From: Zymoseptoria tritici IPO323
Lineage: Eukaryota > Ascomycota > Dothideomycetes > Mycosphaerellales > Mycosphaerellaceae
Direction: 5' to 3'
Length of the DNA stretch: 64,000 nt
Assembly: GCF_000219625.1 (NCBI RefSeq)
Contig: NC_018208.1
Coordinates: 744,001 to 808,000, forward strand
Position numbers and translations under genes: made by a program
The notes under the pieces: model-generated
What the model saw: only the letters and a program-made list of their open reading frames with translations
What the model was told of the DNA's origin: nothing
Database searches by the model: none
Part shown: piece after piece, positions 31,755 through 63,834 of the stretch
Numbering within the stretch: the stretch's first letter is position 1
How the letters are laid out: every line of letters starts with the position of its first letter

Positions 31755-33847
31755 CATCCTCATCCACGTGTTTCTGCAGCAGCGAATAGAACTTGCGCTC
31801 AACCATCAGAGACCTCGATGTCGTGGCGCTCAACAGCGAGCCCGCGGAGTGTAGATGATACTGCCAAGAGGCCGTGGCGCGGTGGGTGATGTGCTGGTCC
31901 TTGGACGTAGGGCAGAGTCCGAAGAACCGGTATCTGATCAGATGGTTCATGTCGAGCTTAACGTGGCCATCGCCAAAATGCGAACACCACAGCTCGACTC
32001 CGCACCTAGGACAAGAGCGCTTATGTGGACCGAGGAGACGGGGGAGGATAGGACCTCTGTGATTAGAGGCGACGTAGTGCAACAACTCGATGTGTTTTCT
32101 AGAGAACTCGCAGTCGTGATAAGGACAATCCTTCATTTCAACATAGCGCAGGGCGATCTGCTTGCCGAGTTCCTCCCTGTTGGGACTAACGTCGTGATTA
32201 TGAACTCCCTATAGGCAAGGCGGGTCGTGGAGGCAGTTGCCTCCATCCTTGGCCTCGCAATATTTGCGATCTTGGTTAGTTGAGCGCTCCTCGAAGATCG
32301 CATGTGTTAGGATGCAGCATCTTGGGGTATGGCAATTGTGACCATACTCGACGGCGTTAAGATCATTATCGTCAGCGTCCTGCAGCTTGAGGAGTCGCTC
32401 CTCGTCCAGACGACCGAGGCTAAGCTAAAGCATCTCGATAAGCCGGACGGTAGGGTGGAACTTCCTGCAACAAGGACACTTAAGATCGATAGGAACGAAT
32501 GACAGGAAGAATCCTCGTGCATCTTCTAAAGAATGTCTACCTTTCGAATTAAGGCGCTCTCCTCTGACACTATTGCTGCGTAGGAAGGTGGTAAACTCGA
32601 TAATATCGCCGCCTATGTCATCGAAGAACTAGTTGAGAGCCGGTACATCGCCTGCTTTACCGTCATAGCCGAAATGCAGAGCAAAGTCGAACGTGATGAT
32701 CGTAGCTATCTCTTGGATCTCCGGAAGGCGAAAGTACGCAAACTTGCAAGGCCATCCTTTCTAAGTGATGCCTCTGCTTTGTAAGATCAGTGCAGCAGAA
32801 GGATTAACAGCCTCTTTCCATTAGGTATTATATCCTGGGTAAGCGACAGGAGGGTTGAGCGCCCGGCCTCGGAGATAGTTAAGCAGGTCGCCGATGAGAG
32901 CCACCCTTGGCCACTGTGCCGCTGACATGAGTCGACGATCGGACTTCGAGAGAGCACGCCAAGCCTGTGAGTGGAAGATTGAAGTCAGCGCCGGAAGCAG
33001 AGAGACAGAGAGGAGTTCTTACCGGGTTGTCCTTGAAGGCTTGGAGCTTTTCAGGTGAGACGCTCGTGACATGGTGCCAACGACCTCGCTTGTGTGTCAG
33101 ACGAGTCTCGGTATCTCTATCGGAGTCCCATCCAGGCAGATAACGTGGGTTCTTGCCACGCTGATCAGCAGTCTTGAATTTCTTCTTCGGACGCGCGGCG
33201 TCGGCATCATCGTCACTGCCTTCATTACTCTCGTCTTCATCATCCTGACTCGCGTCTTCGCCGTTGTTGGGAGCATTGCGGTGGTGTTGCTTCGCCGATG
33301 AACGGACAGGTGCGACAGATTGTGCCGCCTCGGACTCGTCTTGGAGGAGGAAGTCGGCGGACTGGTCGTCTTCGTCATCCGAGGTTTGATCGTTGATGAG
33401 CATGTTATACTCTTCTTCGTCGTCCTCATCACCGGTGTTCTCGTACGACTCGTCACCATCGTCATCCTCGGGCTCTTTGCCGCCGTCATCCTCTTCTTCG
33501 CCGTACTCGAGTAGGCGCAGGTCGTCAGTCTCGTATTCGTCATCCTCGGGCTCTTTGCCACGGCCATCCTCTTCTTCGCCGTACTCGAGTAGGCGTAGGT
33601 CGTCGACCTCGTCTTCGTTATCCTCGGGCTCTTTGCCGCCATTATCCTCTTCTTCGCCGTACTCGAGTAGGCGCAGATCGTCGATTTCTTCGCCGTCATC
33701 CTCCTCTCGATAGTGCTCGGCGTTAAGAAGGTTATCCATCTCTTCGCCGTCATGCTCAGAGTGTACGACATATTCCTCGTCGTAGAGGGACTCATCGAAC
33801 CCTAGTCCGCGAGAAGGAAACGGGGTACCGTACTCGTCGTTAAAGAC
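31729..33847 (-). pseudogene. Acidic-repeat, Cys/His-rich protein gene, unit A
   Basis: Not a recognised family. Minus-strand exon 33,847-33,023 (275 codons) and exon 32,964-31,729 join through a 58-base intron in phase. The first exon holds three 26-residue acidic repeats (DDLRLLEYGEEED...), a further Asp/Glu-rich part, and a basic end unique to this copy (RPKKKFKTADQRGKNPRYLP). The second exon is Cys/His-rich, with CPCCRKFHP, HNCHTPRCCILTH, KDCPYHDCEFSRKHIELLH and CPRCGVELWCSHFGDGH, suggesting zinc binding. Several TAG/TAA codons interrupt exon 2. In copy B a leader exon with a hydrophobic start precedes it; here the corresponding ATG reads ACG and the exon ends in TAG, so this copy looks dead. 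Confidence 0.55.
33452..33686 (-). repeat. 78-base acidic coding repeat, 3 copies (unit A)
   Basis: Each unit encodes 26 residues beginning DDLRLLEYGEEED and containing KEPED. Copy B has four full units plus a diverged one. Confidence 0.85.
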
Positions 33848-34211
33848 CTATATTTAAGAAAGAGACGTCAGCCGTGGGCATCGGAGACAAGTGTAGGAAG
33901 AACATATACCTAAGCGCGGACTGTGAGATGATCGCGAGGCGGGAGGAAGGCGCTAACTGCCGTCGGACTTAGGGGATTGCTAGAGAATAAAGATAAGTGA
34001 CAGGTGTAGAGGAGGATAATGAGGAGTACGAACGTGTAATGAAGAGCTTTAGCAAGCTATACAGACCGTGAATTGCTCGCTACTAGGGAGGATATTAGTA
34101 TAGACGATGTGTGTAGCGTTGACTTTATAGCGAGCGGCATGACACTACCGGAACTCGCTCTCTGGGTGTAGGAAAAGAGTACCGTCTACGTACTACCGGC
34201 AGATTTCCATA

Positions 34212-34594
34212 CTAGGTAAATACTCTTGTGCTGCGGCCCTTACAATGTCGCAGGAGCTGCACTGGAAGGGCGGCGAGTGGGTGAGAGCTGGGAGAGAAGC
34301 GGTCGCGATGCCGGGTTGTTGTGCTGTGGGGTAGTGGGCGGTGGGCGAGGGTGGATGCTGACGGCGTGCTGCGTCGGCGATGCGTTCGGCTATTGCGTGT
34401 GAGCGTAGTTCTGGACTTCATGCATGAGATCTGTTTATGTCACCTGTGCGTTCAATACATCCTCTCAGAGTCGGAGCGAGACGATTGCTCAGCTCACTGT
34501 CGGTTGTAGGACGAGCGATCAACTTGGCGAGTGTTCGCGCCTCGTGTTCGACAGATCGTCGGACGTCCTCGTCAAGGGGCATTGTAGGGAGCAT
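34212..34594 (-). pseudogene. Small variable-cassette gene, unit A
   Basis: From an ATG at 34,594 the frame reads MLPTMPLDEDVRRSVEHEAR and on for 58 residues to a TGA at 34,418, just before the constant 3' part that encodes AIAERIADAARRQHPPS. In copy B an unrelated N-terminal sequence runs in frame into that same constant tail. Here the join would need an implausibly short 33-base intron, so the gene is probably broken or mis-modelled. Confidence 0.35.
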
Positions 34595-34909
34595 CGCTAA
34601 TCATGGTCTCGCGTGAACGACTGGCGAGGGTCAGGTAGGAGATGAAGTATGTGTGAAGAAGAGTGTGGGGTAAGTTGTTTCGCTGTGAGGATGGGGAAGT
34701 GGAAGAAGTGATGTAGGAAAGGCAGGAACGAGGCGTCCTCAGGCAGCAACCTGGAAGCTTGAAAGGCGGATACTGTAGTTCGTTACTTACAGTGAAAGTG
34801 AACATGAGCTGAGAGGAGCAACCGAGCGCCATACACACACAGCACATGTATCACATAGATTTTCTGAATCACGCAACTGGCACAATAGTGATAGCGCTCG
34901 CTCTGCTGT

Positions 34910-35175
34910 AGACGTATACCGGAACCGCCGGCTATAATAAAATGGCTAGATACCGAGAAGTTTAAGGAACAAAGAGAGACACACACTTGGCTGCTATCGA
35001 AATGGAATGTAGCATTAATGCTTGCTAGATCTATATTCTTCGTTCTGTTGCTGTAGTAGACGTCGCCGCTGTATAGTGGCTAAGTATAGAGAAGTTAAAG
35101 GAAACAAGGAGAGACACATACCTAGCTGCGATCAAACTGAAGTGCAGCATCGATGCTTGCTAGATCTATATTGTG
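34910..35175. repeat. 134-base tandem duplication in a constant spacer (unit A)
   Basis: Two imperfect copies sharing ggcta..gagaagtt..aaggaa, gagagacac and atgcttgctagatctatatt, offset by about 134 bases. The same duplication is in unit B. No coding potential is evident, although the words recur in order as in a duplicated leader. Confidence 0.7.
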
Positions 35176-35633
35176 TATCCCTATCGTTCCGCGCTGTACG
35201 AATGATTATCTCCCCGCAGGCTCGATGAGGTGCTAGGCCCGCTCCGTCTTTTTGGTATTAAAGTTGTGTTAATAGGCCTCGACCAATGACTCTGCTTGTG
35301 GACGATACCGCTAGTATAGCAATGCCCTGTTCTCTTCGTCCTAAGCTGTAAGACCAGTAATCTCCGTAAAGCGCTGAGGATATTCTCTCGCCATCTAGCT
35401 AAGTAAACCGGTAACGGTATCGAAGCGGGTATGTGGGAAATCGAACGGGGACTGCGGTAGCGTAACGGTGTTGCTAGTGGCGAGAACGATAGTGCCGTAA
35501 CTACGGAGGTTGTACCAATTGGCATTGAATAGGTGGGTAGTAGGCACATCCGGAACTGCGATTTCGGGGTTGGCGTCGTGGAAACATCGGATGTATGTGC
35601 AGGCGCTACTGGCGTTGTGGGTGGTTGACATCG

Positions 35634-36300
35634 CTACGGCGGCGGTGAGTGGGCGGGCACGATGCGGGATTTGGGTCGAGAAGCCTTGGGATAGATGGAA
35701 TACTCCGTCAACTCATCGTAGATGTCGTCGTAGAGCGAATCCTTGGACGTTATTTGGGGCGGTGGCAATTGCATTAGTTCGCATTGGTACATCTGCATCA
35801 CGACAGCAGCCATAGCATCCTGCACCATGCCTTCGAACACTGTGTCTGCTCTTGCGCCTGCTTCGATGAATGGTTGATCGTTTGTGAATACCACTCCACG
35901 AGGAACCTGCTGGGTCGTTCTCGATGAATGGGCGGTGGAAGCGGGTGTAGCATATGGATGCGATGGCGTGCGCGTCGCTGGAGGAGCGGATGTGCCGGCG
36001 GTTTGCAATAAGGTAGAGGAGGAGGGTTAACTAAGAGCAGTAGGGCGGGGAGTCGTACGCGAGGACTGGACGGGACCGAGGGTTTTGGCTGTTGGTAAGA
36101 GGTTAGCAGTTGCTGGTTGATGTTGCGATGTGGATCTCTGTACCTGGTTGAAGGCTGCCAGTTCCGTTCTGTTGAGCTTTTCTCATAGCCTTGTTGCGCC
36201 TCTCGACCCATTTCTTGTGAGCCACCGCCGTCTTGGCTCCGGTGTTGCTATGCTTCACGTCATCCTCAGCAGTGGCGGTGTCGTTGTTGTTACGTAGCAT
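35634..36300 (-). pseudogene. Two-exon gene with variable first exon, unit A
   Basis: Exon 1 (36,300-36,144) starts MLRNNNDTATAEDDVKHSNT and is basic towards its end (VERRNKAMRKAQQNG). A 55-base intron ends ccaacag. Exon 2 (36,088-35,634) is shared with copy B, contains RGVVFTNDQPFIEAGARADTVFEG, and continues through a 146-base segment absent from B to end SRIVPAHSPPP. The total is 203 residues, with a TAA in exon 2 at a position that reads like a mutated CAA. Unrecognised. Exon 1 has no similarity to B's exon 1, although splice phase and intron are the same. Confidence 0.5.
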
Positions 36301-36594
36301 GTTCGTGGATGTGGACAGGATGGATGTCGCGGAACCAAACAATGGGAATGGTGGGTGAGAATGGAGAGGGGAGAGGCACGGATGTAGCTGTTGGTGGATA
36401 GTTGTTGTGAACAACCTGAAAAATGAGATGTATTAGGTTGTCAGACTCAATTGCCACTAGGACAAAGTGAGCGAAAGCTTAATTTGGCCACGAGGACCGC
36501 AACGCGACCTCACCTGCAACCTTAGTCCACAACATTGTTGGCACACAGTACCTCACTGAGCATCTGGACATCCACGAAACTCAATTCAGTCTTA

Positions 36595-37690
36595 CAATGC
36601 CTTTCTCTGCTGGTCTACACGACCGGAGGTTAGCCTCCTTGCTCTGGGGCTTCCTCGACTCTTACAACGCCTTTCTCTGCTGGTCCACACAACCTTAGGT
36701 TAGCTTCCTTGCTCTAGGGCTTTATCGACTCTTACAACACCTTCTCTGCTGGTCCACGAGACCTCAAGTCGGCTTCCTTGCTCTAGGGCTTTATCGACTC
36801 TGATAACACTTTCTCTGCTGGTCTACACGATATTAGGTCGGCTTCCTGGCTCCGTGGGATCCTCGACTCTTACAACACTTTCTCTGCTAGTCTACACGAC
36901 CTTAGGTCGGCTTCCTGGCTCCGTGGGATCCTCGACTCTTATAATACCTTCTCTGCTGGTCTACACGACCTTAGGTCGGCTTCCTGGCTCCGTGGGATCC
37001 TCGACTCTTACAACACCTTCTCTGCTAGTCTACACGACCTTAGGTAGGCTTCCTTGCTTAGTAGGCTCCGCACCTCTGGTGCTGTTGGCTTTTAATGCTT
37101 TGCCTGCTGGTCTATAAGACCTTAGGAAAAGACCTTGACTCTGTAGGCTCCGCACCTCTAGTGCTGTTGGCTTTGCGTTCTTATCTGCTGGTCTACGAGA
37201 CCTCAGGAAAAGACTTTAACTCTGTAGGCTCCGCACCTCTGGTGCTGTTGGCTTTGCGTTCTTATCTGCTGGTCTACGAGACCTTAGGAAAAGACTTTGG
37301 CTCTGTGGGCTCCGCACCTCTAGTGCTGTTGGCTTTGCGTTCTTATCTGTTGGTCTATAAGACCTTAGGAGAAGACTTTGGCTCTATGGGCTCCGTACCC
37401 CTAGTGCTGTTAGCTTTATGTTCTTATCTGCTGGTCTACGAGACCTCAGGAGAAGACTTTGGCTCTGTGGGATTCGCACCTCTGGTGCTGTTAGCTTTGC
37501 GTTCTTACCTGCTGGTCTACGAGACCTTAGGGGGAGAGTCTCGCTTTATGGGGTTTGAACATCGGATGGTTGTCGGCTTTGCGTTCTCATCTGCTGGTCG
37601 GCTAGACCTTAGGGTAAGGGTCTCGCTTTATAGGGGTTGAACATCGGATAGTTGTCGGCTTTTGGGTCTCGTCTGCTGCTCCGCCAGACC
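36595..37690 (+). repeat. 69-base then 81-base minisatellite, unit A
   Basis: Units share the core ctgctggtctacacgacct. The first seven or so are 69 bases long and contain ctcgactcttacaacacc; the next six are 81 bases long and contain ggctccgcacctctggtg. Both periods are multiples of three, so a plus-strand frame stays open (27-residue repeats such as SVGSAPLVLLALRSYLL). Lies between the two-exon gene and the BTB gene. Confidence 0.85.
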
Positions 37691-38128
37691 TTAGATATAG
37701 GCCTCTACTTGGTTTAAATGAACATTAAGTGGCTTTTGCTTTTAATGCTTCGCCTGTTAGTCCGCTAGACCTTAGGATAAGACTTTAACTTAGTTAGAAT
37801 TGTACACTAGATGGCTTTAGCTCTGTTGCTTGCTCTGTTAGTTCTCTAGACCTTATAGCGCCCGTCCCTTGTTAGCCAAACCTGGCCTTAGGACCGTCGT
37901 CGGCTGGACATTATCTGCCCGATTTGCCTGATTATTAATGTATGCGGCGATGCAATACTGCATTAGCAGGCGTTACCGTGGTATTAGAGATTTCTGATTG
38001 AGCACATAAGAATTGTTGTATTGGGACTACATCTAGAGGCTTGCAAAAGCTGAAAGGAGACGTCTGCTGTGCTCTGGTGCAAGGATGGAGAGATAAAGTT
38101 GAAAGATCGGCCGTTGTATCACAATGAA

Positions 38129-38156
38129 GATGTCAGATGTCAGATGTCAGATGTCA
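38129..38156 (+). repeat. (GATGTCA)4 microsatellite
   Basis: Four 7-base units upstream of the BTB gene in copy A; copy B has a single unit, after which the two copies diverge. Confidence 0.85.
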
Positions 38157-38362
38157 GATGCAAGGCGGTGGAGGTTTCAGCTGATTGCGCGCGGATGTCA
38201 GCCTACATTTCACACCTCTGCGTCAAGGTTTATCACAGCGACGAATCCGCCGAACATCCACAAGACGTTGGTACACTGAGCGTCTGTTCTCGACAACAAC
38301 AACCACCGGAACGCCACGCCGGCACCATCAACGAGAACAACGTAACTCGCAGCCAGGAAGAC

Positions 38363-39273
38363 ATGGCTCGAATCGAGATGAGTGACTTCGACAACGACCA
38401 ATACTCCGACGTCATAGTCAAGATCTACGTAGGCGTCGATGAGCAGTCAGACTGTCGGACGTTCCGCTGCCACAAGCTCGTACTCGGGAAGGAAAGCGAC
38501 TTCTTTGAGAAAGCGTTCAACAAGAATAGCAGATTTGCAGTGCGTCTAGTCGGACTCTCTTGCATCGACCGCGGCTGACACTTCACAGGATGCCAACTCG
38601 GACGTGTGCAAATTGTTCGAACATAATTTGGATGTTATGGAGGCCTACCTAAAGGGACGCTATAGGTTCGCGCCGAGTAACGCGGAGACCGCGGACTGGG
38701 AATTTATGCTGGAGCTCGCTCACATCGCGAGGTTTGTGGTCCATTTTCATCTTAGACATAAGTCTTTGCTAACGCATGTACAGCAGGTATAGAAATTCTA
38801 AGGAGGCGAGACACTACTGGCACGAGTTCCGCTGTGCACTTAAGAATACGTGGGAGAATGCGCGCGCTACGGCGCTAGAGCACGCCACAGAGGTGCTGAA
38901 GAAGTTGTTGCTCTCTTAAGACGTGGCCTTCGAGAAGTGGGACGACTGTACATCGAGAGGCTTACCAGAAGCAGTCGGACTGCGTTTTCTATGCAACAAC
39001 TTCAATTATTTGATGGGAGACAGCGACTTCTTTGAATGGCTCCAGGGCTAACTACACCTGGTCCGCGCGGTAATAACAGCATACACGAATGTGGATGTTT
39101 ACGTCTGTCCGGACAAGTGCGAGGCTGGTATCCGGAAGGGACTACAGAGGGACGACCCGGATCTGGAGCTAAGCTGCCCGACTTGCTCGAAGGAAATGGA
39201 GAAGCGAATCGTGCTGGCTACTAAACCCGACGTCGCCGAGTTCATCGATAACCCCCTCGACGAAGACTACTAG
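38363..39273 (+). pseudogene. BTB/POZ-domain protein with C-terminal zinc-ribbon-like motif, unit A
   Basis: Three exons (38,363-38,539; 38,589-38,731; 38,787-39,273) give 268 codons. The BTB domain spans exons 1-2: YSDVIVKIYVG, then FRCHKLVLGKESDFFEKAF, then EAYLKGRYRF. BTB proteins commonly dimerise and act as CUL3 ubiquitin-ligase adaptors or chromatin factors. The C-terminal part has CPDKC and CPTC, a possible zinc ribbon. Two in-frame stops (LLLS-stop-DVAF; LQG-stop-LHLV) are RIP-type, so the copy is probably inactive. The frame is also open upstream (from 38,069), so a longer N-terminus is possible. Introns and 3' flank are much closer to copy B than the exons are. Confidence 0.65.
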
Positions 39274-40019
39274 CACCCAAGGCGACGGAACGATCGAGCT
39301 TGAAGATTAAGCTGGCGGATCACGATGGTATACAGATGCTACGAGAATGAGCTATGGCAGTGTAGTCGATAAAACCAAACACGGACGACGGAGGCGGAAC
39401 AGCTGAAACGTTCGTAGATGTGCATTGACGTAAGTCGTCTAATAAGCTACTTAGATAGAGAGGCAAGAAGCCTCTACAGCAAATGCAAACGCAAAGGTTA
39501 AACCGAACTGAATCTACTATTGTCTCTATTTATCCTCCTCGCGAATCCTAAAAGCTACGGTGTAGTAAGCCGTCGGTGTTAAGAAGAAGCACCTTAGGCA
39601 GCGAAGCTAGTGCTTGCTACCTTAGTACAAAGCAACTTTAGCGGCATACGAATAGTCTAATTAGTAATAGGTCGCGCGGTTTGAAAAACTGGAATATACG
39701 CGAGAGCGAGATAACAATAGGCATGCTTAGTCCTCCTCTAGCGCCGGAATAGCATCGGTGATATGGTAGCGGAAAATAAGGGCGTAGTGTGTAATGCGCC
39801 GAAGAGAGGCAATGCGAACAGACTGTAGTGTTGATCGTAGTAGTATGGAAGCGGCGGACGTCGTGAATGCGAGGACTGGCGTAGTCCGAAGAGGTTAATC
39901 GAGGAGTGCCTGCTAAAGACTAACAAAGTTAGCGGAGGCGAACGGTAGAGGAAAGGGCGATGTCGAAATACTTACGGGACGAATCTGAATAGCTCTTAAT
40001 TAAGGGAGAGAAGCAAGTC
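39274..40019. other. Constant spacer 3' of the BTB gene, unit A
   Basis: Alignable with 58,887-59,625, with differences mostly transitions. No convincing gene; the short minus frame at 39,738-39,926 has no recognisable features. Confidence 0.5.
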
Positions 40020-40802
40020 TTAGTCTTCGATGCTGGCTAGCGCATTCGCCTCCTCTTTAGTACGCTCCTTGGCCTCCTTATCGGCTACCTCGCGAGCAAT
40101 GAAGGATCTTACCCTTAGAGCGATGCCCTCGTACAAGAGAAAGAAGCTATGCTCGAGGTGCGGTATGTAACGTCCCGAATCCGTAAAGTCTTTTATGAAT
40201 GCCAGCTCCTGTTTAATCAGGTTGTAGAGAAGGTAGATGCGGGCGACATAGGGAAGACATAGAGTGTGGCGAGGCTTAGGGTATCCCATTTCAGGCAGTT
40301 AAGACTAGCGATAGGCGCGCATAGGGTTGATCTCGCGCTATTCTTCAGGTGAGGTAGTGTCGAGGTTGAGTAGCTGGCTACGGCAAAAAGCCCGCACGGT
40401 GTTTTCAGCTTCGATTCCGCTTGCGAAGATATGATCGTATTTTTCGGTAATAGACTTAACGACGTTAAGAAGTGAAGATCTCCCTAACCGAGCGAAGAGA
40501 TCGAGCTGCTATCGCTCAACTGTATTATGGCTGTGGTAGGTGGACGGATCATTTTTATGGGGTTGGAGGACGGGGCGTGGGAACTCGGGTCCTAGCTGGA
40601 CGTCGGCGGGCTTGAACAGCTCGAGACGAATAGATTTATGCAAGAGGAGGTAGGAGTCGCGGGTGATGTTGAGTAAGCGGACGTTCTGGTCGTGGTTGTT
40701 TTGATATGGGCCGTTCGCCTGCTGGCGAAGCTGCTGCGCGGTGTACGGGCGATAGCCTGCACGAGTAAGGCAGCGTATGTCCGTCTCCGTAAGCTCCGGC
40801 AT
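40020..40802 (-). pseudogene. Unknown 260-residue protein gene (MPELTETD), unit A
   Basis: A continuous minus frame from the ATG at 40,802, interrupted by TAG/TGA-type stops (for example after HNTVER, where copy B has a Trp codon). It begins MPELTETDIRCLTRAGYRPY, contains KSIRLELFKPADVQLGPEF and LLNVVKSITEKYD, and ends in a charged coiled-coil-like stretch (AREVADKEAKERTKEEANA). The coding part is constant between units and has the same length in B, while the sequence upstream of about 40,905 is unrelated. I do not recognise the family. Confidence 0.55.
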
Positions 40803-41416
40803 GACTAATATGAGTGATAAGGTAGCGGTCGGTGCAACTAAAGACGATGAGGTCGGATTGGGTTTGCGTGAGGTGAAGCTGGCTGCTGACGAGGACGGGT
40901 TTGGTTGGAGGACGCGTTGGAGTTGTGTTGGAGGTGTGACAGCGGTGATAATGAGGCCAGAGGAGGAGGAGCGGGAGGTGATGTAACAGCAGCAGGTGTT
41001 GCAGAATGTGAAAGTGACTCAATGTGATGTGGTGTTTGTTTCTCTGGCGTGGGGACCGGGTGAATGAGATTTGAAATTGCGGATGTTGCGTTTGTCGACA
41101 TGAGTGGTCGAGCGATCGAATTAGGGGCTTCTCCGAGTATGTGAATTCAGGACAGTCTTGATAATCTCGACATAGTCCCGAGGACGAGATTGAAGAGACG
41201 ACGGACGTGTACAACATGGGATTTTATTAATAGTTGAGCAGTGAGGACTTGAGATCTAAACATGACTTCGTATTTTGCCTGGGTTGGGTGATAGGCGGCT
41301 GATCTCGCTCTTTACTGTCGAGCCAGTCTCCCATCGAGTATTCTGCGGTAGCGCAGTGTCTATTGAAAGAGAATGAGTCGCATATCCAACACAAAGCATG
41401 ACTGAAAGGCAAATCC

Positions 41417-44185: not shown

Positions 44186-44303
44186 TAAGTGGATGACATG
44201 GCGGATCAGCGATAAGACAGGCGGTAATGGCATGGAGAGGCGAGATTGGCGTTGGTGTCGACATGGGGGTGCAGAACGGGTTTTTGGTCTGATTTGAGAT
44301 AGT

Positions 44304-51208: not shown

Positions 51209-51229
51209 TTAAAACAGGTGCAAGTTATT

Positions 51230-53652: not shown

Positions 53653-53878
53653 GTGATAAAGAGCTTTGGCAAGCTATACAGACCGTAAATTGCTCGCCAC
53701 TGGGGAGGATATTAGTGTGGGCGATGTGTGTGGCGTTAACTTCATGGCGAGCGGCATGACACTACCGGAACTCGCTCTCTAGGTGTAGGAAAAGAGTACC
53801 GTCTACGCACTACCGGCAGATTTCTGTACTAGGTGAATACTCTTGTGCTGCGGCCCTCACAATGTCGCAGGAGCTGCA

Positions 53879-54316
53879 CTAGAAGGGCGGCGAGTGGGTA
53901 AGAGCTAGGAGAGAAGCGGTCGCGATGCCGGGTTGTCGTGCTGTGGGGTGGTGGGCGGTGGGCGAGGGTGGATGCTGACGGCGTGCTGCGTCGGCGATGC
54001 GTTCGGCTATTGCTGTCTTGAAAGGTGTGCTGTGGGCCACGCCATGATCCCTGGCACGCCTGATAGCCTCAGTGCAGGTGAGACACGTAGTCCAGTCACA
54101 CGACTCGTCGTTGCAGCTGCGTAGTTGCGCGGCACATGCAATGCTGATGTCGATACGAAGCTTCTGGCGGAACTTGAGAGTGGCTCGTTCTTTTGCATGT
54201 TGAAGTTGCTCGATGCTAGGAGCGGGCGAGGAGCGTTCGAGGTCACGGATCTCACGATCGACGTAGCTGGCCCAGAGAGGGTATGAACAAGCCGTGAGAG
54301 TAAGGTTCGTCGGCAT
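53879..54316 (-). CDS. Small Cys-containing protein, unit B
   Basis: An uninterrupted frame from ATG at 54,316 gives 145 residues. It begins MPTNLTLTACSYPLWASYVD, has a charged helix (REIRDLERSS; KERATLKFRQKLR) and a Cys cluster (CAAQLRSCNDESCDWTTCLTC) that could bind zinc or form disulphides. It ends in a Pro/His-rich tail that is the part shared with unit A. The preceding frame extends further but reads like promoter. Not recognised. It is one of the few unit genes without a stop. Confidence 0.5.
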   Translation of the reverse strand: MPTNLTLTACSYPLWASYVDREIRDLERSSPAPSIEQLQHAKERATLKFRQKLRIDISIACAAQLRSCNDESCDWTTCLTCTEAIRRARDHGVAHSTPFKTAIAERIADAARRQHPPSPTAHHPTARQPGIATASLLALTHSPPF

Positions 54317-54539
54317 TGTGGAATGTGATGTGTGCGTGAAACAAGTGATAGCAGAGAATGGGGAAGAAAAGCGAGGAAGCGTGGCACGGACCAGATGGGA
54401 CGCGCACGTGCGGGTATGGCTTAGACCGAGAGAATGATCCAAATGACGAGTAACCGAGCGCCATACACACACAGCACATGTATCACATAGATTTTCTGAA
54501 TCACGCAACTGGCACAATAGTGATAGCGCTCGCTCTGCC

Positions 54540-54805
54540 GTAGACGTATACCGGAACCGCCGGCTATAATAAAATGGCTAGATATTGAGAAGTTCAAGGA
54601 ATAAAGAGAGACACATACTTGGCTGCTATCGAAATGGAATGTAGCATTAATGCTTGCTAGATCCATATTCTTCGTTCTGTTGCTGTAGTAGACGTCGCCG
54701 CTATACAGTAGCTAAGTATAGAGAAGTCGAAGGAAACAAGGAGAGACATATACCTAGCTGCGATCAAACTAAAGTGTAGCATCGATGCTTGCTATGTCTA
54801 TATTG
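54540..54805. repeat. 134-base tandem duplication in a constant spacer (unit B)
   Basis: Counterpart of 34,910-35,175, with the same two imperfect copies. Confidence 0.7.
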
Positions 54806-55026
54806 TGTATCCCTATTATTCCGCGCTGCACAAATGATTATCTCCCCGCAGGCTCGATAAGGTGCCAGGCCCGCTCCGTCTTTTTAGTATCAAAGTTGTG
54901 TTAATAGGCCTCGACTAATGACTCTGCTTGTGGACGATACCGCTAGTATAGCAATGCCCTGTTCTCTTCGTCCTAAGCTGTAAGACCAGTAATCTCCGTA
55001 AAGCGCTAAGGATATTCTCTCGCTAT

Positions 55027-55777
55027 CTAGCCAAGTGAACCGGTAACGGTATCGAAGCGGGTCTGTAGGAAATCGAACGGGGACTGCGGTGGCGTGACGG
55101 TGTTGCTAGTAGCGAGAACGATGGTGCCGTGACTACGGAGGTTGTACCAATTGGTGTTGAATGGGTGGGTAGTAGGCACATCCGGAACTGCGATTTCGGG
55201 GTTGGCGTCGTGGAAACATCGGATGTATGTGCAGGCGCTACTAGCGTTGTGGGTGGTTGACATCGCTACAGCGGCGGTGAGTGGGCGGGCACGATGCGGG
55301 ATTTGGGTCGAGGAGCCTTCAAACACTGTGTCTGCTCTTGCGCCTGCTTCGACGAATAGTTGATCGTTTGTGAATACCACTCCACGAGGAACCTGCTGGG
55401 TCGTTCTCGATGAATGGGCGGTGGAAGCGGGTGTGGCATATAGATGCGATAGCGTGCGCGTCGCTGGAGGAGCAGATGTGCCGGCGGTTTGCAATAAGGT
55501 AGAGGAGGAGGGTTAACTAAGAGTAGTAGGGCGGGGAGTCGCACGCGAGGACTGGACGGGACCGAGGGTTTTGGCTGTTGGTGAGAGGTTAGCAGTTGCT
55601 GGTTGAGGTTGCGATGTAGATGTCTGTACCTGGTCGATCATTGTCTGGTGCGTTGGACGGTATCCCGTCTTTGTGGTTGCGCTTGCGCTTCTGTTTCCTT
55701 AACGCCGATGCAGCCAGCGGGTCGCGATGTTGACCAGGCTTCTCGGCTATGGTGGTGTGTTTGTCTATAAGCGGCAT
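55027..55777 (-). pseudogene. Two-exon gene with variable first exon, unit B
   Basis: Exon 1 (55,777-55,630) starts MPLIDKHTTIAEKPGQHRDP and is basic (LRKQKRKRNHKDG); it shows no similarity to exon 1 of unit A. The 55-base intron and exon 2 (55,574-55,027) are shared. Exon 2 lacks 146 bases present in A, so after ARADTVFEG the frame changes to read on through STTHNASSACTYIRCFHDA and PDVPTTHPFNTNWYNLRSHG, for 231 residues in total. One TAA lies at the same place as in A. Unrecognised. Confidence 0.5.
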
Positions 55778-56104
55778 GGTCCAAGATGTGGATGGGATGG
55801 TTGTTGGTGATGGAGAGAATGGGTGGAGTGGCGGTGCGGCTCGGCGTGAGGTGCAGCAAAGCTGGAGTGAGGTGAAGTCCACGACTGGAGCTGACGCGGA
55901 GTTGACACGTCTGAGCGCGACGCGATGGTGGGTGGGGTGTGCCTGGGATGACTAATGCGATTCGTTTTCACGGGTATATTTTCGATGTCGCTGCTTTCAG
56001 ACCTTCTCATGCTCAGACAAAGACCTCCCGCTTCCACATCGTCGTTACTGTTGGCACACAGTACCTCACTAAGCCTCTGGACGTTCACGAAACTCAATTT
56101 AATC

Positions 56105-57290
56105 TCATAACGCCTTTCTCTGCTGGTCCACACAACCTTAGGTTGGCTTCCTTGCTCTGGGGCTTCCTCGACTCTTACAACGCCTTTCTCTGCTAGTCCA
56201 CATAACCTCAGGTCGGCTTCCTTGCTCTGGGGCTTTATCGACTCTTACAACACCTTCTCTGCTGGTCTACGAGACCTTAAGTCGGCTTCCTTGCTCGGTG
56301 GGATTATCGACTCTTACAACGGCCTTCTCTGCTGGTCCATACAACCTCAGGTCGGCTTCCTTGCTCAGTGGGATCCTCGACTCTTACAACACCTTCTCTG
56401 CTGGTCTACACGACCTTAGGTCGGCTTCCTTGCTTAGTAGGCTCCTCGACTCTGATAACACTTTCTCTGCTGGTCTACACGACCTTAGGTCGGCTTCCTG
56501 GCTCCGTAGGATCCTCGACTCTTACAACACCTTCTCTGCTGGTCTATACGACCTTAGGTCGGCTTCCTTGCTCGGTGGGATCCTCGACTCTTACAACACC
56601 TTCTCTGCTGGTCTATACGACCTTAGGTCGGCTTCCTTGCTTAGTGGGCTCCGCACCTCTGGTGCTGTTGGCTTTTGATGCTTTGCCTGCTAGTCCACAA
56701 GACCTTAGGAAAAGACCTTAACTCTGTGGGCTCCGCACCTCTGGTGCTGTTGGCTTTGCGTTCTCATCTGCTGGTCTACGAGACCTCAGGAAAAGACTTT
56801 GACTTTGTAGGCTCCGCACCTCTAGTGCTGTTAGCTTTGCGTTCTTATCTGCTAGTCCACGAGACCTTAGGAAAAGACTTTGGCTCTGTGGGCTCCGCAC
56901 CTCTAGTGCTGTTGGCTTTGCGTTCTTATCTGCTAGTCTACGAGACCTCGGGAGAAGACTTTAGCTCTGTAGGATTCGCACCTCTGGTGCTGTTGGCTTT
57001 GTGTTCTTATCTGCTGGTCTACAAGACCTCGGGAGAAGACTTTGGCTCTGTGGGATTCGTACCTCTGGTGCTGTTAGCTTTGCGTTCTTACCTGCTGGTC
57101 TACGAGACCTTAGGGGGAGAGTCTCGCTTTATAGGGTTTAAACATCGGATAGTTGTCGGCTTTGCGTTCTTATCTGCTAGTCGGCTAGACCTTAGGGTAA
57201 GAGTCTCGCTTTATAGGGGTTAAACATCGGATAGTTGTCGGCTTTTGGGTCTCGTCTGCTGCTCCGCCAGACCTCAGATATAGGCCTCTA
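56105..57290 (+). repeat. 69-base then 81-base minisatellite, unit B
   Basis: Same two unit types and order as in unit A. The 69-base units read as 23-residue repeats (SASLLSGILDSYNTFSAGL) and the 81-base units as 27-residue repeats. Nearly free of stops in those frames. Confidence 0.85.
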
Positions 57291-57957
57291 CTTAGTTTAG
57301 ATAAACATTAAGTAGCTTTTGCTTTTAATACTTCGCCTGTTAGTCCGCTAGACCTTAGGATAAGACTTTAACTTAGTTGGAATTGTACGCTAGATGGCTT
57401 TAGCTCTATTGCTTGCTCTGTTGGTTCTCTAGACCTTATAGCGCCCGTCCCTTGTTGGCCAAACCTGGCCTTAGGACCGTCGTCGGCTGGACATTGTCTG
57501 CCCGATTTGCCCGATTATTAATGTATGCGGCGATGCAATACTGCACTGGTAGGCATTACCGTAGCATTAGAGATTAAGCACATGGGAATTGTTGTATTAG
57601 GACTACATCTAGAGGCTTGTGGAAGCTGAAAGGAGACGTCTGCTGTGCTCTGGTGCAAGGATGGAGAGATAGATTTAAAAGATCGGCCGTTATATTACAA
57701 TGAAGATGTCAGATGGGATGCGGTGTGTCCACTTTGCGGGATATTGCGGGATCACTTCAGTGAGGACGACGGTGGGAGCAGCCGCTGCGCGTGATCCGTT
57801 TGCGGGTGGATCAATTCGAAAAGTTTCATCGTTGCGAAACCTTTTCCCAACAAACACCGACACGGACACATCAAGTGTCTGCTCCCAACACCTACCACCA
57901 CCACAACGCCACGCCGGCACCATCAACGAGAACAACGTGACTCGCAGCTAGGAAGAT

Positions 57958-58886
57958 ATAGCGTACATTAGCAAGGCCGACTTCAACGACGAGAGTTTCT
58001 CGGACGTTAAGATCGAGATCTACACGGGTGTCGATGACCAGTCGGACCGCCGGAGCTTCCACTGCCACAAGCTCGTGTTAAAGAAGGATAGCGAGGTCTT
58101 TGCCACGGCGTTTAACAAGAATAGCAGATTTGCAGTGCGTCTAGTCGGACTCTCTTGCATCGACCGCGGCTGATACTTCACAGGATGCCAACTCGGCGGT
58201 GTACAAGGTTTTCGAGGAGGATCTGGACGGCATAGAGGCCTACCTTAAGGGTCGCTACGGCATCGCGCCGAGTGACGCGGAGACCGCGGACTGGGAATTC
58301 ATGCTAAAGCTTGCTTACATCGCGAGGTTCGTGTTCTATTTTTATCTTAGACATAAGTCTTTGCTAACACATATATAGCAAGTATGGAAATTCTAAGGCG
58401 GCGAGGGAATATTGGGACGACTTCCGCGCGGCGTTTAAGAAAGTATGGGATAACACGCGCCCAACGGCGCCGAAGCAGGCGGAAGAGATGCTGAAGAAGT
58501 TGTTGCTCTGTGAAGACGTGGCATTCGAGGAGTGGAACAGTACTACATCGAAAGGCTTACTAGAACTCGTCGGATTGCGCTACGTGCGCAACAATCATAA
58601 CGGCTTAATAAAGGACGACGACTTCTACGAGTGGATCTCAGGCTACCCACGCTTGTGGCGCAAATGCCTCGCAGCATTCACGGCTGTGTACGTCCACATC
58701 TGTCCAGACAGGTGCGAGGGCGGACTTCGGAAGGGACTATAGGGTGACGGCTTAGATCTAGAGCAGCGCTGCCCGGTGTGCTCGACGAGGATGAACAAGA
58801 AGACGATCTAGGTTGCTACGGCGGACGTCGCCGACTTTATGGTCGACCCGAGCGAGGTCGTGGTTGACAGCAGAGGTGTCGTCTAA
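57958..58886 (+). pseudogene. BTB/POZ-domain protein, unit B
   Basis: The same three-exon layout as unit A (exon ends 58,134; 58,184-58,326; 58,382-58,886) preserves phase and gives 275 codons. BTB text: FSDVKIEIYTG, FHCHKLVLKKDSEVFATAF, EAYLKGRYGIAPSDAE. The C-terminal part has CPDRC and CPVC like A, plus a longer acidic end. The position of A's start ATG reads ATA here, an upstream CAG reads TAG, and the second intron's acceptor reads CAA instead of CAG, so the copy appears non-functional. Exons differ from A by many transversions; intron 1 differs at a single base in 49. Confidence 0.62.
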
Positions 58887-59625
58887 GGCAACGGGTCTAT
58901 CGAGCTTGAAGATTGAGCTGGCGGATGACGATGGTACACAGATGCTATAAGAATGAGCTATGGCGGTGCAGTCGATGAGATCAAATACGGACGACGGAGG
59001 CAGAACAGCTGAAACGTTCGTAGATGTGCATTGACGTAAGTCGTCTGATAAGCTACTTTGATAGAGAGGCAAGAAGCCTCTATAGCAAATGCAAACGCAA
59101 AGGTTAAACCGAACTGAATCTACTATTGTCTCTATTTATCCTCCTCGCGAATCCTAAAAGCCACGGTGTAGTGAGCCGTCGGTGTTAAGAAGAAGCACCT
59201 TAGGCAGCGAAGCTGGTGCTTGCTACCTTAGTACAAAGTAACTTCAGCGGCATACGAATAGTCTGATTAGTAATAGGTCGCGCGGTTTGAAAAACTGGAA
59301 TACACGCGAGAGCGAGATAACAACAGGCATACTCGGTCCTCCTCTAGCGCCGGAATAGCATTAGTGATGTAGTAGCGGAAAATGAGGGCGTAGTGTGTAA
59401 TGCGCCGAAGAGAGGCAATGCGAATAGACTGTAGTGTTGATCGTAGTAGCATGGAAGCGGCGGACGTTATGAATGCGAGGACTAGCGTAGTCCGAAGAGG
59501 TTAATCGAGGAGTGCCTGCTAAAGGCCGATAGAGTTAGCGGAGGCGAACGGTAGAGGAAAGGGCGATGTCGAAATACTTACGGGACGAATCTGAATGGCT
59601 CTTAATCAAGGGAGAGAAGCAAGTC
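58887..59625. other. Constant spacer 3' of the BTB gene, unit B
   Basis: High similarity to unit A resumes within about 30 bases of the stop codon and continues to the next gene. No convincing gene in it. Confidence 0.5.
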
Positions 59626-60408
59626 TTAGTCTTCGATGCTAGCCAGCGCATTCGCCTCCTCTTTAGTACGCTCCTTAGCCTCCTTATCGGCTACCTCGCG
59701 AGCAATAAAGGATCTTACCCTTAGAGCAATACCCTCGTACGAGAGAAAGAAGCTATGCTCGAGGTGCGGTATGTAACGTCCCAAATCCGCAAAGTCTTTT
59801 ATAAATGCTAGCTCCTGTTTGATCAGGTTGTAGAGAAGGTAGATGCGGGCGACATAGGGAAGATATAGAGTGTGGCGAGGCTTAGGGTATCCTATTTCAG
59901 GCAGTTAAGACCAGCGATAGGCGCGTATGGGGTTGATCTCGCGCTATTCTTCAGGTGAGGTGGTGTCGAGGTTGAGTGGCTAGCTACGGCAAAAAGCCCG
60001 TACGGCGTTTTCAGCTTTGATTCCGCTTGCGAAGATATAATCGTATTTTTCGGTGATGGACTCAACGACGTTGAGAAGTGAAGATCTCCCTGACCGGGCG
60101 AAGAGGTCGAGCTGCCATCGCTCAACTGTATTATGGCTGTGGTAGGTGGACGGATCATTTTTATGGGGTTGGAGGACGGGGCGTGGGAACTCGGGTCCTA
60201 GCTGGACGTCGGCAGGCTTAAACAGCTCGAGACGAATGGATTTATGTAAGAGGAGGTAGGAGTCGCGGGTGATGTTAAGTGAGCGGACGTTCTGGTCGTG
60301 GTTGTTTTGATATAGGCCGTTCGCCTGCTGGCGAAGCTGCTGCGCGGTGTACAGGCGATAGCCTGCACGAGCGAGGCAGCGTATGTCCGTCTCCGTAAGC
60401 TCCGGCAT
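59626..60408 (-). pseudogene. Unknown 260-residue protein gene (MPELTETD), unit B
   Basis: Same length as copy A. Trp is intact after HNTVER (A has TAG), but stops remain after AFCRS, TSPEE and AYRWS. The frame also extends upstream of the ATG into the unit-specific block (Ser/Pro-rich), which I treat as leader. Confidence 0.55.
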
Positions 60409-60936
60409 GACTAATATAAGTGATAAGGTAGCGGTCGGTGCAACTGAAGACGATGAGGTCGGATTGGGTTTGCGTGAGGTGAAGCTGGCTGCTGACGAGG
60501 ACGGGCTTGGAAGGGGGGTACAGCGGAATGAGATGGGCGCGGAGAAATAGAGGGGATCACGAGAGTGAGTTTTCAACGACGAGGCGGACGAGACAGAAGG
60601 GGGAATTGGATCATGTGTCGCAAACGAAGTGTGTGTAGGGGAGATAGGACGTCAACAGGGACCAGGGGGTGAGGGGATATGGCTGATGAGAGGATTTAAA
60701 CGCCAGTGATATGGATGAGAATACGACGAAAGCGCGATACGTCAGTCGTTATTGTTATTTGGAGGCTTGAGGCTTGCACCATGCTATGACTTCAAGAGGA
60801 ACTCATAAGTGCGTCCACCCCACCCCCTGCCCAGTTTCCATTTCACCTCCGCACAGCTCTTCAAATGAGTTGAAGACTACTGGTCAGCGAAAGTGAATCC
60901 CATATCTTGCTCGGAGTGTCTTTGAAACCCATAACC

Positions 60937-62064
60937 TCAAAGGAGTGCCACGCCTCCAACTTCACGCTTGGAACGACGGTCGTAGACAACCATTTCCCTC
61001 AATTTGGTTCCAGCGAAGAGATGCTTATCGTCCACGTACGCCTGTCCTCCTAAATACCTCTCTCGGAACCACCAGAGTGCGGTCCTGTACTCCTGCGGCA
61101 CGCGAGTGTGGAATGCGATTGCTTGAAAGACAGCCCGGTCGGAGTCGTCGGTGTCGCGGGCGCGATCTCCTGCACTTAAGGCGTGGATCTGAGCGGCAGC
61201 CTGAATGCCTCTCATGGCCTGTTGGTGGAGGTACGCGCGGAGATCTGGAGAAAGCTCTTCATCTTCTTCGTCGTCTTCGGTCATTGCCGATTCGTCGATC
61301 AGGAATTGAACAGAGATGGCTTTGGTTCCAATAGGGAGTGGAGGGAGATTAACGACCTGTCTCTCGATGTCTGTCTCATTCACAAAGGAATCCTCCACCA
61401 GTTGATCAAGCTCGGCGATTTCGCCCAGAGCGTCTTCTCCGATACAAGAAGTAGGGAGTCGAAGGATAGCCGGAGTTGGCGGATGAACGGCGTTGCCATG
61501 GAAAGCGTCGCGGCGGAAGAACTCGAAGTAGAGCTGGCTTAAGGAGCGGGTGTGAGACTGGTCGATGTTCTCAATCTTGAAGCGGATTGTGTGGACGAGC
61601 GGAGCAATAGATGGTTCGACCTCTGACATGCTGTCAAAAAATGGTTGATGATTCGGTGGCCAGAGTCCCATGTCGAATCGGGAGATGAGAATTATGCTTG
61701 CGAGGAGCGTCTCGCGGGCATAGTAGAGGGCACGACGGCAGGAGGCTATGAAAGATGTAGGGGTGGTACTGGTGGCGGCGCCGGTGATCAAGTTTGCGTA
61801 GATAATCTCCTGTATCTCTTGTGCTAAGTCGAAGAGACTCAAGTTGCGGAATGTCCTCGGAAGGATGTTGGGTTGGAGATGGGCGAGCAAATGCAACTGC
61901 TCTCCTGGTGCGACGAGGGTGCGGACGACGGTAGGAGATTGAGAGGGGCGCTCTGAACGGCGCTCCGATGGGCTCTTTGACGGAGTCTTCAGTTGCTCCT
62001 TGTGGCGGCGCTGTGATTTGGCTTTCGCGGTCGGCGGCGAGTGGTGAGGGCGGAGTTCCACCAT
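60937..62064 (-). CDS. F-box-like protein, unit B
   Basis: An intact frame of 375 residues from the ATG at 62,064, which aligns with the start used in unit A; an in-frame ATG at 62,211 would add 49 Ser/Thr-rich residues. It has a basic Ser/Lys-rich N-terminus, an F-box-like segment (NLSLFDLAQEIQEIIYANLI) near residue 75, a helical middle (PLVHTIRFKIENIDQSHTRS), an acidic loop (MTEDDEEDEELSPDL) and a conserved C-terminus with WWFRERYLGGQAYVDDKHLF. F-box proteins select substrates for SCF ubiquitin ligases; this role is inferred from the motif only. No stop codons, unlike copy A, so this may be the functional paralogue. Confidence 0.55.
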   Translation of the reverse strand: MVELRPHHSPPTAKAKSQRRHKEQLKTPSKSPSERRSERPSQSPTVVRTLVAPGEQLHLLAHLQPNILPRTFRNLSLFDLAQEIQEIIYANLITGAATSTTPTSFIASCRRALYYARETLLASIILISRFDMGLWPPNHQPFFDSMSEVEPSIAPLVHTIRFKIENIDQSHTRSLSQLYFEFFRRDAFHGNAVHPPTPAILRLPTSCIGEDALGEIAELDQLVEDSFVNETDIERQVVNLPPLPIGTKAISVQFLIDESAMTEDDEEDEELSPDLRAYLHQQAMRGIQAAAQIHALSAGDRARDTDDSDRAVFQAIAFHTRVPQEYRTALWWFRERYLGGQAYVDDKHLFAGTKLREMVVYDRRSKREVGGVALL

Positions 62065-62606
62065 CGTGAAGGGTGATGGGACGGTGGATGTGAGGCGTGA
62101 TGTTGTGTTTGTGGAAGAGAATGTAATGTCAGAGATGAAAGTGTTTGTTGAACGAAGTGAAGCTAAGTGGGGAAACGGGGGGCGAGGGGGTGAAGGTTGA
62201 CGAGGAGGCATCGAGGTGAGAGCTGAAGAGCAGATGAACCTGTATGCGGAGGTGGTCTGTGCGTTGCGCGCAGGTGGATGATGTTGCTATGCCAGGATCC
62301 GGAAAAGTGAGATGTTCGGTGAAAGAAAACAAAGAGAACATCAAGGAACAAACAACACCAAAGCGACCGACTGCATGTCAGCTGTCGTCCCTTCACATCA
62401 CGAGCAGCATCCACCCACCTGACGACACCAGCGCATGCTCACAAATAACCTTACCGACCGTAGCATAGCGAGCAGTAGAAGTCTCGCTATATCGAAATTA
62501 ACACGCAACGACTTTACTACCGGATCTGCTGCACACCCGCCCTCCTCTGTACTCGAAGCTGCGCCCAACCTACTAGAAGCACCTACTAGCACCTGGATTC
62601 TTGACT

Positions 62607-63716
62607 ATGCCTGCGTTAACACTTTTCGAGTTGAAGAATTTGGTGGGGAATGGCTTTCTAAAGTATACGAGGGCAGAGTTGGATGCGAAGATGAGCAGCG
62701 CTTATCCTCCGAGCGACACAGAAGTGAATCGTATACTCTTTTTTACCGCTGGCGAAGGAGCAGATTTTCGTAGGGAGATTCGGGATATGGCGCGCGTAGA
62801 TAGCGGCGAGGAGACACTAGAGGATCTGTGGGCAGGCAAGGAAAATGTTAGCACCAAGTACGCGAGCGCTAGCGAGCGCCTCTAGAACTGGCAGCTACTA
62901 GTGCGCGCGGAATCTCGAGCTAAGCTCATCGACCCGATCGTAAGGAAGATGACCTACAAGTATAAACATCTCTTTCTGGAGGCGCAAGACGAGGAGGAGA
63001 GCGACGCCACCGAGATAGACAACCCCCACGCCGGTGATCCGCTTATGGCGCGCATTAGATTCCCAGAGCCAGCCCGCGTCGAGTGCCTGACGCATGTCCA
63101 AAGCAAGAAGCTGTTGCGCTTGGTAATCGAAGGAGAGTTCCGGAAGATGAAGAAGCTGCCTAAGCTGTACGTCCGCGGCGAGCCAAAGTTCCACGAGAGG
63201 ATTGGACAGATCGCACCGAGAGTTACGGAATAGGAGGAGAGAGTAGTAAAAGCGGAGAAGGCAGCGGACAAGAAGGGGATTAAGAGGAACAGGAAAGAAC
63301 ACCTCTTACTATAGAACTGTAGGGAGTTAAGGTTCGTGCATTTAGAGAGTGACAAGATAGAGGCGATGTATATGTACGACCTGGCTCTACCAGTCTAAGC
63401 GACCGCATTAAGGAAGGCCCATAGAGAAACACCGCTTCTCGCAGAATTTACGCTGCAAAAGATGAAGGAAAGGGTAGAGAGCTTCAAAGAATAGGTTGAC
63501 AAGACGGCGACGCTACCTAAAGAGTACTAGCTCGGGTAGACCTAGAGGGGGCAGGAATACGAGTTAACGACCGATCCAAGGCTCCACAACATGATTCGAT
63601 GGTGTAAGAAGGACGAACTGGAGGCGGAGGTAATAGTGCACGTCGGGCGCTGCCCGCGAGCACCGAAGACCGTGAGAGAGGCAAAGTGGGCGACGGAGCC
63701 GGACGTGGGCTATTGA
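62607..63716 (+). pseudogene. Unknown 369-residue protein gene, unit B
   Basis: Collinear with copy A codon for codon. Stops unique to B (TE-stop-EERVV, LLL-stop-NCRE, LPV-stop-ATAL) fall where A has Trp or Gln. Stops shared by both copies (RL-stop-NWQ, SFKE-stop-V, T-stop-RGQ) are either older than the duplication or recurrent. Confidence 0.5.
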
Positions 63717-63834
63717 TAAGTGGATGATATGGCGGATCAGCGATGAGACAGGCGGTAATGGCGTGGAGAGGCGAGATTGGCGTTGGTGTCGACATGGGGG
63801 TGCAGAACGGGTTTTTGGTCTGATTTGAGATAGT

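Follow-up and report, generated by a model that had tools for sequence, protein, structure and literature searches.

The 64,000-nucleotide window of Zymoseptoria tritici IPO323 analysed here contains two units, A (positions 31,748–44,324; 12,577 bases) and B (51,219–63,855; 12,637 bases), spaced 19.5 kb apart, which probably represent two alleles (haplotypes) of a single multigene locus that a recent duplication brought onto the same chromosome, where both were afterwards altered by repeat-induced point mutation (RIP), a fungal defence that mutates repeats. The units form a mosaic in which a common scaffold scarred by RIP alternates with non-homologous blocks from which the scars are missing, and these two are the only copies among the matches listed in the genome. 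Beyond what an initial annotation of this DNA had described, the scaffold differences are mostly RIP-context transitions that fall evenly on both units, and the old blocks are free of them.

Self-BLAST and global alignment delimit the units and give the same segment order in A and B, with 93–96% identity in the six main scaffold segments. The left arm of A, carrying the 3′ part of gene 1 (31,748–33,022, minus strand), is 87% identical to 51,219–52,501, and gene 1 contains several diverged patches of about 10–90 bases each; gene 1 of B (52,484–53,464, minus strand) is an open frame whose acidic product has repeats of 26 residues, encoded in units of 78 bases. Rightwards in A lie a RIP-marked scaffold segment at 33,461–34,396 (93% identical to 53,078–54,013), one at 34,813–36,148 (about 95% identical to 54,445–55,634) that includes 141 bases, 35,688–35,828, missing from B, and minisatellites with 69- and 81-base units at 36,590–37,700 (counterpart 56,103–57,283), the stretch 36,536–37,700 being 92% identical to B. 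The segment at 39,295–40,903, within which gene 5 starts (ATG at 40,802, minus strand), is 94.5% identical to 58,901–60,509 with two transversions in 1,609 sites, and the right segment at 42,818–44,324, 93.8% identical to 62,349–63,855, holds an open frame that we call gene 7 (43,355–43,963, plus strand).

Gaps between the BLAST matches occur at five places, 33,023–33,194 in A and 52,502–52,688 in B, 34,397–34,812 and 54,014–54,444, 36,152–36,535 and 55,638–56,048, 38,140–38,278 and 57,716–57,873, and 40,905–42,817 and 60,511–62,348. The five block lengths given in the initial annotation are correct to within 3 bases, except that the fourth block is 158 bases long in B and not about 180. Its description of the last block as non-homologous or strongly diverged holds in part, but another match lies in the middle of this gap, which contains one gene segment of 67% identity and the stretch 42,181–42,420 of 90% identity. 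Its count of at least five blocks missed the gene 1 patches and gene 4, whose region (38,280–39,290) is only 74% identical between A and B. The spacers, which it took to be nearly unchanged, have the scaffold identity of 93–96%, and 221 of the 353 scaffold differences, in 6,262 sites, are RIP-context transitions (115 in A and 106 in B).

Its central claim, of a common scaffold with sharply bounded blocks, is borne out by both alignments and by a two-state segmentation of the A–B alignment, which gains 1,250 log units over a single rate (0.1–0.9 in three column shuffles); the identity profile is not smooth, and the blocks are alternatives present in both units and not insertions in one. On the minus strand of A, old block 1 occupies gene 1 up to the modelled 5′ splice site (33,023–33,253; counterpart 52,502–52,732), block 2 the front part and leader of gene 2 (34,397–34,812), block 3 the leader and first exon of gene 3 (36,149–36,535), block 6 the stretch from the gene 5 leader to the back part of gene 6 (40,904–42,193) and block 6c the front part and leader of gene 6 (42,420–42,817). 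The corresponding minus-strand blocks of B are block 2 at 54,014–54,444 (the front part of gene 2, ATG at 54,316; 41% identity), block 3 at 55,635–56,048 (ATG at 55,777), block 6 at 60,510–61,710 and block 6c at 61,937–62,348. Block 4 lies upstream of gene 4 (38,140–38,311; counterpart 57,716–57,906). Blocks 2, 6 and 6c of A lack a RIP signal. Between blocks 6 and 6c of A is a younger island within gene 6 (42,194–42,419, minus strand), a segment without a Pfam match that we presume to be F-box-like. Gene 6 of B (60,937–62,286, minus strand) is a single 449-residue frame from stop to stop, open across both edges of the island; the version in the protein collection has 375 residues.

Between 33 and 59% of aligned sites differ in the old blocks, a comparison of A with B within one strain. 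Transversions reach 0.26–0.35 per site in six non-homologous blocks, 0.17 in the back part of gene 6 and 0.11 in gene 4, and number 22 in the 6,262 sites of the scaffold, minisatellites left out. Synonymous divergence is 1.03 in the back part of gene 6 and 0.67 in the gene 4 exons, and about 500 largely non-coding bases between genes 5 and 6 have diverged beyond alignment.

Gene 4 of A, a BTB-domain gene (38,363–39,273, plus strand; modelled exons 38,363–38,539, 38,589–38,731 and 38,784–39,273) that is RIP-marked and has two in-frame stops, has diverged in its exons, while both introns are near-identical in A and B. Its longest transversion-free run, of 90 sites, surrounds intron 1 (P = 0.0026 by random placement), and in a test that keeps neighbour correlation the deficit in its introns is borderline, equally few transversions being found in 43 of 911 circular shifts. 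The modelled introns adjoining old exons together have 6 transversions in 213 sites, against 219 in the 1,213 sites of exons and leaders (Fisher test, p = 1.6e-10, neighbour correlation ignored), and the modelled intron of gene 3 of A (36,089–36,143) falls in the scaffold. Half of the eight start, stop and splice features of genes 1, 3 and 4 lie at most 20 bases from a block edge (1, 6, 11 and 16 bases; the others 22, 22, 61 and 87), against 9.8% of all positions. To the eye the gene 1 splice site coincides with a block edge, for which the boundary list gives no support.

The scaffold differences have the hallmarks of RIP. In alignment columns where the sequence is locally constant, transitions account for 411 of 458 substitutions. 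Among C/T differences whose following base is unchanged, 120 of 160 are at CpA, and 149 of 204 G/A differences are at TpG; the unmutated base is found about evenly in A and B (62 and 58 at CpA, 72 and 77 at TpG). The ratio TpA/(TpA+CpA+TpG) is 0.30–0.45 in 14 of 14 scaffold segments and 0.06–0.19 in 12 of 12 old blocks, in a set without part of the left arm, the minisatellite, gene 4 and the gene 6 island; minisatellites were excluded from the RIP-edge and scaffold-difference counts as well. Among 309 control windows, each 400 bases long and taken from six gene-rich stretches, not one reaches 0.30, and all 12 old blocks, but none of the 14 scaffold segments, resemble such gene-rich unique DNA. 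The 309 windows omit two RIP-rich stretches of the eight controls: in L023 all 49 windows, and in L025 18 of 49, are at or above 0.30. RIP-like DNA is therefore no peculiarity of the A/B locus, and a pooled comparison of coding with non-coding DNA, confounded by these two stretches, was set aside. Outside a block edge the ratio is 0.17–0.20 up to 100 bases away and 0.37–0.40 farther off, and the signal is missing from blocks of 41–67% identity.

C-to-T change at CpA on both strands thus marks the repeated DNA and not the unrepeated blocks, the pattern of a RIP-affected repeat, with the left arm of A, the gene 6 island and gene 4 as exceptions. The RIP index of the left arm is weak in A (−0.42) and stronger in B (0.06), and that of the island is weak in both (−0.18 in A, −0.16 in B). 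Since RIP is present in the scaffold and lacking in the old blocks, the blocks were already heterologous when RIP acted. This speaks against a chimeric assembly, against drift following a duplication and against paralogs of long standing.

Genome DNA searches covering all of A and B, made with a tool that passes over simple repeats and words of very high frequency, had only A and B among their listed matches, and no third unit or donor. Protein searches of the genome listed only A, B and a gene 6 match on C13 (75 residues, 35%), and a search of a collection of 5.8 billion proteins returned only the gene 6 protein of the window itself. Comparison of the flanks of A and B gave no match, and 8-base matches between the unit ends number five in A and none in B. 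Possible gene names for this part of chromosome 11 yielded no paper, and the literature that we searched holds no description of the pair, although one may have been published elsewhere.

An allelic origin would bring these observations together. Before the duplication, versions of the locus in the population would have had a common scaffold, kept so by recombination, and very old alternative gene blocks; a recent duplication would have brought two haplotypes onto the same chromosome, and RIP would then have mutated both copies where they matched and spared the blocks that did not. In crosses of Z. tritici, a 14 kb duplication is reported to have taken 242 mutations, in 10 of 12 tetrads keeping the duplication (PMC10294615), and at that rate the 115 and 106 RIP-context changes would, as a rough estimate, need only tens of sexual cycles. 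So few cycles would not allow mutation to supply the scaffold transversions, and allelic diversity would fit. A heterogeneous duplication should place old blocks beside an allelic-level background, and this is what A and B display, if 22 transversions in 6,262 sites are judged by the Watterson's theta of 0.014 quoted for Z. tritici in PMC6836716. Idiomorph-like alternatives are thus the best-fitting of the readings offered in the initial annotation, and its argument that a simple duplication with later drift would not suffice is borne out by the blocks having differed already when RIP acted; for cassette exchange, which it also suggested, family members within the genome are not supported as the source, the DNA and protein searches having listed no donor there. 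Some observations run against joined haplotypes. Synonymous divergence near 1 seems more than introgression between sister species should give. The RIP contrast has the exceptions noted above, a RIP-marked gene 4 despite its divergence and a weak signal in the gene 6 island and the left arm of A, and a unique stretch at 44.4–47.5 kb (index −0.38) is intermediate between the RIP-marked and unmarked classes; the 19.5 kb spacing is also unaccounted for, with flanks that gave no mutual match.

A more specific proposal, which we regard as possible but doubtful, is that A and B derive from a recognition-type locus of several genes, with exons that balancing selection holds as very old alternatives. 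Recombination would have erased the difference from spacers and introns at a scale as fine as tens of bases, and both versions would stand in one haploid genome by chance, with RIP outlining the homologous stretches. Allorecognition domains (HET, NACHT/NLR and similar) were sought with Pfam, and in the pieces scanned, which covered the broken genes in part, only the BTB domain of gene 4 exceeded the cut-off.

It is unlikely that A and B are instead old tandem paralogs, in which an ancient duplication has been followed by conversion between the copies that keeps spacers and introns alike while selection separates the coding blocks. The primate red and green opsin genes are paralogs of this kind, homogenised by conversion with coding parts kept apart by selection. 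The low intron divergence described above agrees with such a history, and gene conversion is described as frequent in Z. tritici, with median tracts of 539 and 432 bases (PMC10294615). However, two 12.5 kb copies so alike would have faced RIP through sexual cycles over a very long time, which does not fit the moderate scars and the few transversions of the scaffold, and ongoing conversion should have overwritten the unalignable bases between genes 5 and 6.

Neutral introgression, by which the blocks of one unit would have come from sister species through hybridisation and been shortened by recombination, with nothing keeping them separate, appears improbable. The nearness of half of the gene features to block edges counts against it, as does the intron transversion deficit in gene 4, itself borderline. 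Introgression is nevertheless the published account of highly variable regions in Z. tritici, with a mean introgression segment of 1,238 bases (PMC6836716), and non-coding leaders and spacers are indeed among the old blocks.

Repeats this similar, 19.5 kb apart, are a well-known hazard for assembly, but a chimera, whether of repeats or of two haplotypes, is very improbable here. In A as in B the RIP composition shifts at the block edges, gene 6 of B keeps an open frame over two such edges, and the published reference is described as a Sanger assembly in which all 21 chromosomes are complete (PMC6836716). RIP-like DNA to the left of both units might speak for an element, mobile or able to capture genes, in which exchangeable cargo sits in a constant body. 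This is highly unlikely, since only two copies are listed in the genome, their ends have no common terminal repeats beyond the few 8-base matches, where such an element should have several copies that share their ends or carry target-site duplications, and the blocks lie at matching places inside the same genes.

Two haplotypes joined in one chromosome would have relatives among known systems. Feurtey et al. (2019; PMC6836716) report 665 highly variable regions in Z. tritici, 990 kb in total, defined by more than 200 variable sites per kb, with borders crossed by PCR at 11 loci. Like the A/B blocks, these are short segments of extreme divergence in otherwise ordinary chromosome, and they form at least two diverged haplotype groups, as A and B would, but as described they differ between strains and consist of alignable DNA, whereas A and B stand in one haploid genome with several blocks beyond alignment. 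The 'transversion allele' copies of dim2 in Z. tritici (PMC8016269) similarly combine transversion-rich divergence in one domain, high similarity outside and RIP on top, although they are reported for one gene with extra subtelomeric copies, unlike about seven gene models in two units on a core-size contig. The het genes of Aspergillus fumigatus (PMC11138114) offer gene-confined ancient divergence that drops abruptly to normal outside, and a narrow footprint of balancing selection in a highly recombining fungus; function and trans-species sharing are demonstrated there, whereas A and B are known from the sequence of one genome. In heterogeneous gene duplications (PMC6121789), two different alleles are likewise joined on one chromosome by duplication. 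Known cases concern one gene with a known advantage, in contrast to the several genes and later RIP damage of A and B. Mosquito ace-1 is such a gene.

If A and B are indeed two haplotypes, one reference genome would display side by side two old versions of a locus, for which a population is normally needed, with the scaffold dated by transversions and homology outlined by RIP, and one would ask which multigene locus of Z. tritici is kept in such different versions. The pair would also be a natural gauge of how RIP senses homology, its signal dropping over the last 100 bases or so before a block edge and gone from blocks of 41–67% identity. In the crosses described in PMC10294615, no RIP leakage was seen around transposable elements.

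Self-comparison and global alignment of the two units, A (31,748–44,324) and B (51,219–63,855), returned the same segment order in both and the block lengths given in the initial annotation, which had described a constant scaffold interrupted by sharp, replaceable blocks. The sharpness was borne out as well: a two-state model built on matches, transitions and transversions beat a single rate by 1,250 log units, against 0.1–0.9 for three column shuffles, and its major edges lie no more than a few bases from the BLAST ends. Scaffold segments 39,294–40,902 and 43,175–44,302 carry 2 transversions in 1,609 sites and 1 in 1,128, respectively, and the old, strongly diverged blocks 1, 2, 3, 4, 6a and 6c carry 0.26–0.35 per site. 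Overlooked at first were the moderately diverged gene 4 (74% identical) and short diverged patches in gene 1. The units also differ by 141 bases at 35,688–35,828, present in A and missing from B within an otherwise about 95% identical segment, and in minisatellites of 69- and 81-base units (36,590–37,700 in A; 56,103–57,283 in B), the 69-base array having 6.8 copies in A and 7.8, about one more, in B.

The scaffold bears the marks of repeat-induced point mutation (RIP). Transitions make up 411 of the 458 substitutions in locally constant columns; where the adjacent base is unchanged, CpA accounts for 120 of 160 C/T differences and TpG for 149 of 204 G/A differences, changes in these contexts being split about equally between units. 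Pooling five scaffold segments gave a composite RIP index of +0.25 in A and +0.16 in B; five old blocks pooled likewise gave −0.63 and −0.82, and four gene-rich stretches nearby ranged from −0.63 to −0.86. Intermediate readings came from the left arm, the 3' part of gene 1 (31,748–33,022 in A, −0.42; 51,219–52,501 in B, 0.06), the younger island inside gene 6 (42,194–42,419 in A; −0.18 and −0.16) and the 44.4–47.5 kb stretch (−0.38). TpA/(TpA+CpA+TpG) is 0.06–0.19 in all 12 old-block values and 0.30–0.45 in all 14 scaffold values given; in six gene-rich control stretches none of 309 windows of 400 bases reached 0.30, two further stretches, themselves RIP-rich, being excluded. This fraction is 0.12–0.21 inside blocks, 0.17–0.20 less than 100 bases outside and 0.37–0.40 at 100 to 1,000 bases. 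The blocks therefore already differed when RIP hit both copies. Gene 4 is the exception, diverged yet RIP-marked.

Leaving out the minisatellite and patchy parts, 6,262 scaffold sites hold 22 transversions (0.35%) and 331 transitions. Of the transitions, 221 fit the strict RIP context, the mutated base being in A for 115 and in B for 106. With the usual two to three changes in all for each transversion, background scaffold divergence is suggested to be of the order of 1%, a value near the 0.014 given as Watterson's theta for the species (PMC6836716). In a published cross (PMC10294615), a 14 kb duplication gained 242 mutations, all CG:TA, found in 10 of the 12 tetrads still carrying it. At that rate, by rough estimate, tens of sexual cycles would be enough to leave the scars seen in A and B. 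Mutation cannot account for the transversions in so short a time; most likely, therefore, the scaffolds derive from two different individuals, and they behave as alleles. The old blocks are far older than this divergence, as judged by the back part of gene 6 (dS 1.03, dN 0.34, protein 56% identical) and the gene 4 exons (dS 0.67, dN 0.30). Old paralogs kept alike by gene conversion are a less likely source, as they would have been exposed to RIP for a very long time. We lean instead towards two haplotypes of one locus, which would already have borne different old blocks upon a shared scaffold, would then have been joined on one chromosome, and would afterwards have been mutated by RIP where they matched. 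The blocks themselves may owe their presence either to selection or to chance introgression.

Divergence may be centred on exons. Using our own predicted splice models for genes 1, 3 and 4, we counted 1 transversion in 101 sites of the two gene 4 introns versus 102 in 810 of its exons; with an intron from gene 1 and another from gene 3 included, the totals were 6/213 versus 219/1,213. Removing the first modelled intron of gene 4 raised its BTB domain score from 18.1 to 27.8 bits (cut-off 20.5). An intron test for gene 4 preserving neighbour correlation was borderline (43 of 911 shifts). Eight gene features were measured against block edges: the nearest are the start codon of gene 4, 1 base away, and a modelled splice site of gene 3, at 6 bases; two others lie within 16 bases and four lie 22–87 bases away. 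Old sequence extends over non-coding leaders too, and over the interval separating genes 5 and 6. The exon pattern is therefore suggestive but unproven.

In A, gene 4 is interrupted by two in-frame stops, the 3' part of gene 1 appears by eye to be broken by stops, and gene 6 contains two stops, its counterpart in B being open for 449 residues; several genes of the locus have thus probably lost their function in this strain. The window is positions 744,001–808,000 of contig C11, treated here as chromosome 11 of Zymoseptoria tritici strain IPO323. DNA searches of the genome (39,686,251 bases in 21 contigs; C11, holding both units, 1,624,292 bases; C1, 6,088,797 bases) with each half of A and of B listed only A and B, as did protein searches apart from a weak, 75-residue match to gene 6 on C13. 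Gene 6 of B returned only its own protein from a collection of 5.8 billion.

The blocks may be akin to the highly variable regions of Z. tritici, which are known between strains and attributed mostly to introgression (PMC6836716). PMC8016269 reports a pattern similar to the A/B mosaic for dim2 copies, and PMC11138114 describes het genes of A. fumigatus at which the trace of very ancient balancing selection is narrow and restricted to the gene.

Between the units, 45,056–47,164 holds a 702-codon open frame with a weak, below-cut-off glyoxalase match. Just left of B, 48,966–50,900 is a very AT-rich array of 16-base units with RIP-like composition, one row having 73 copies. Left of A, a long RIP-like stretch (18,000–31,700; composite index 1.30) contains tandem repeats of 39 and 47 bases and, at 22,594 and 26,387, the two copies (97% alike) of a 203-base direct repeat.
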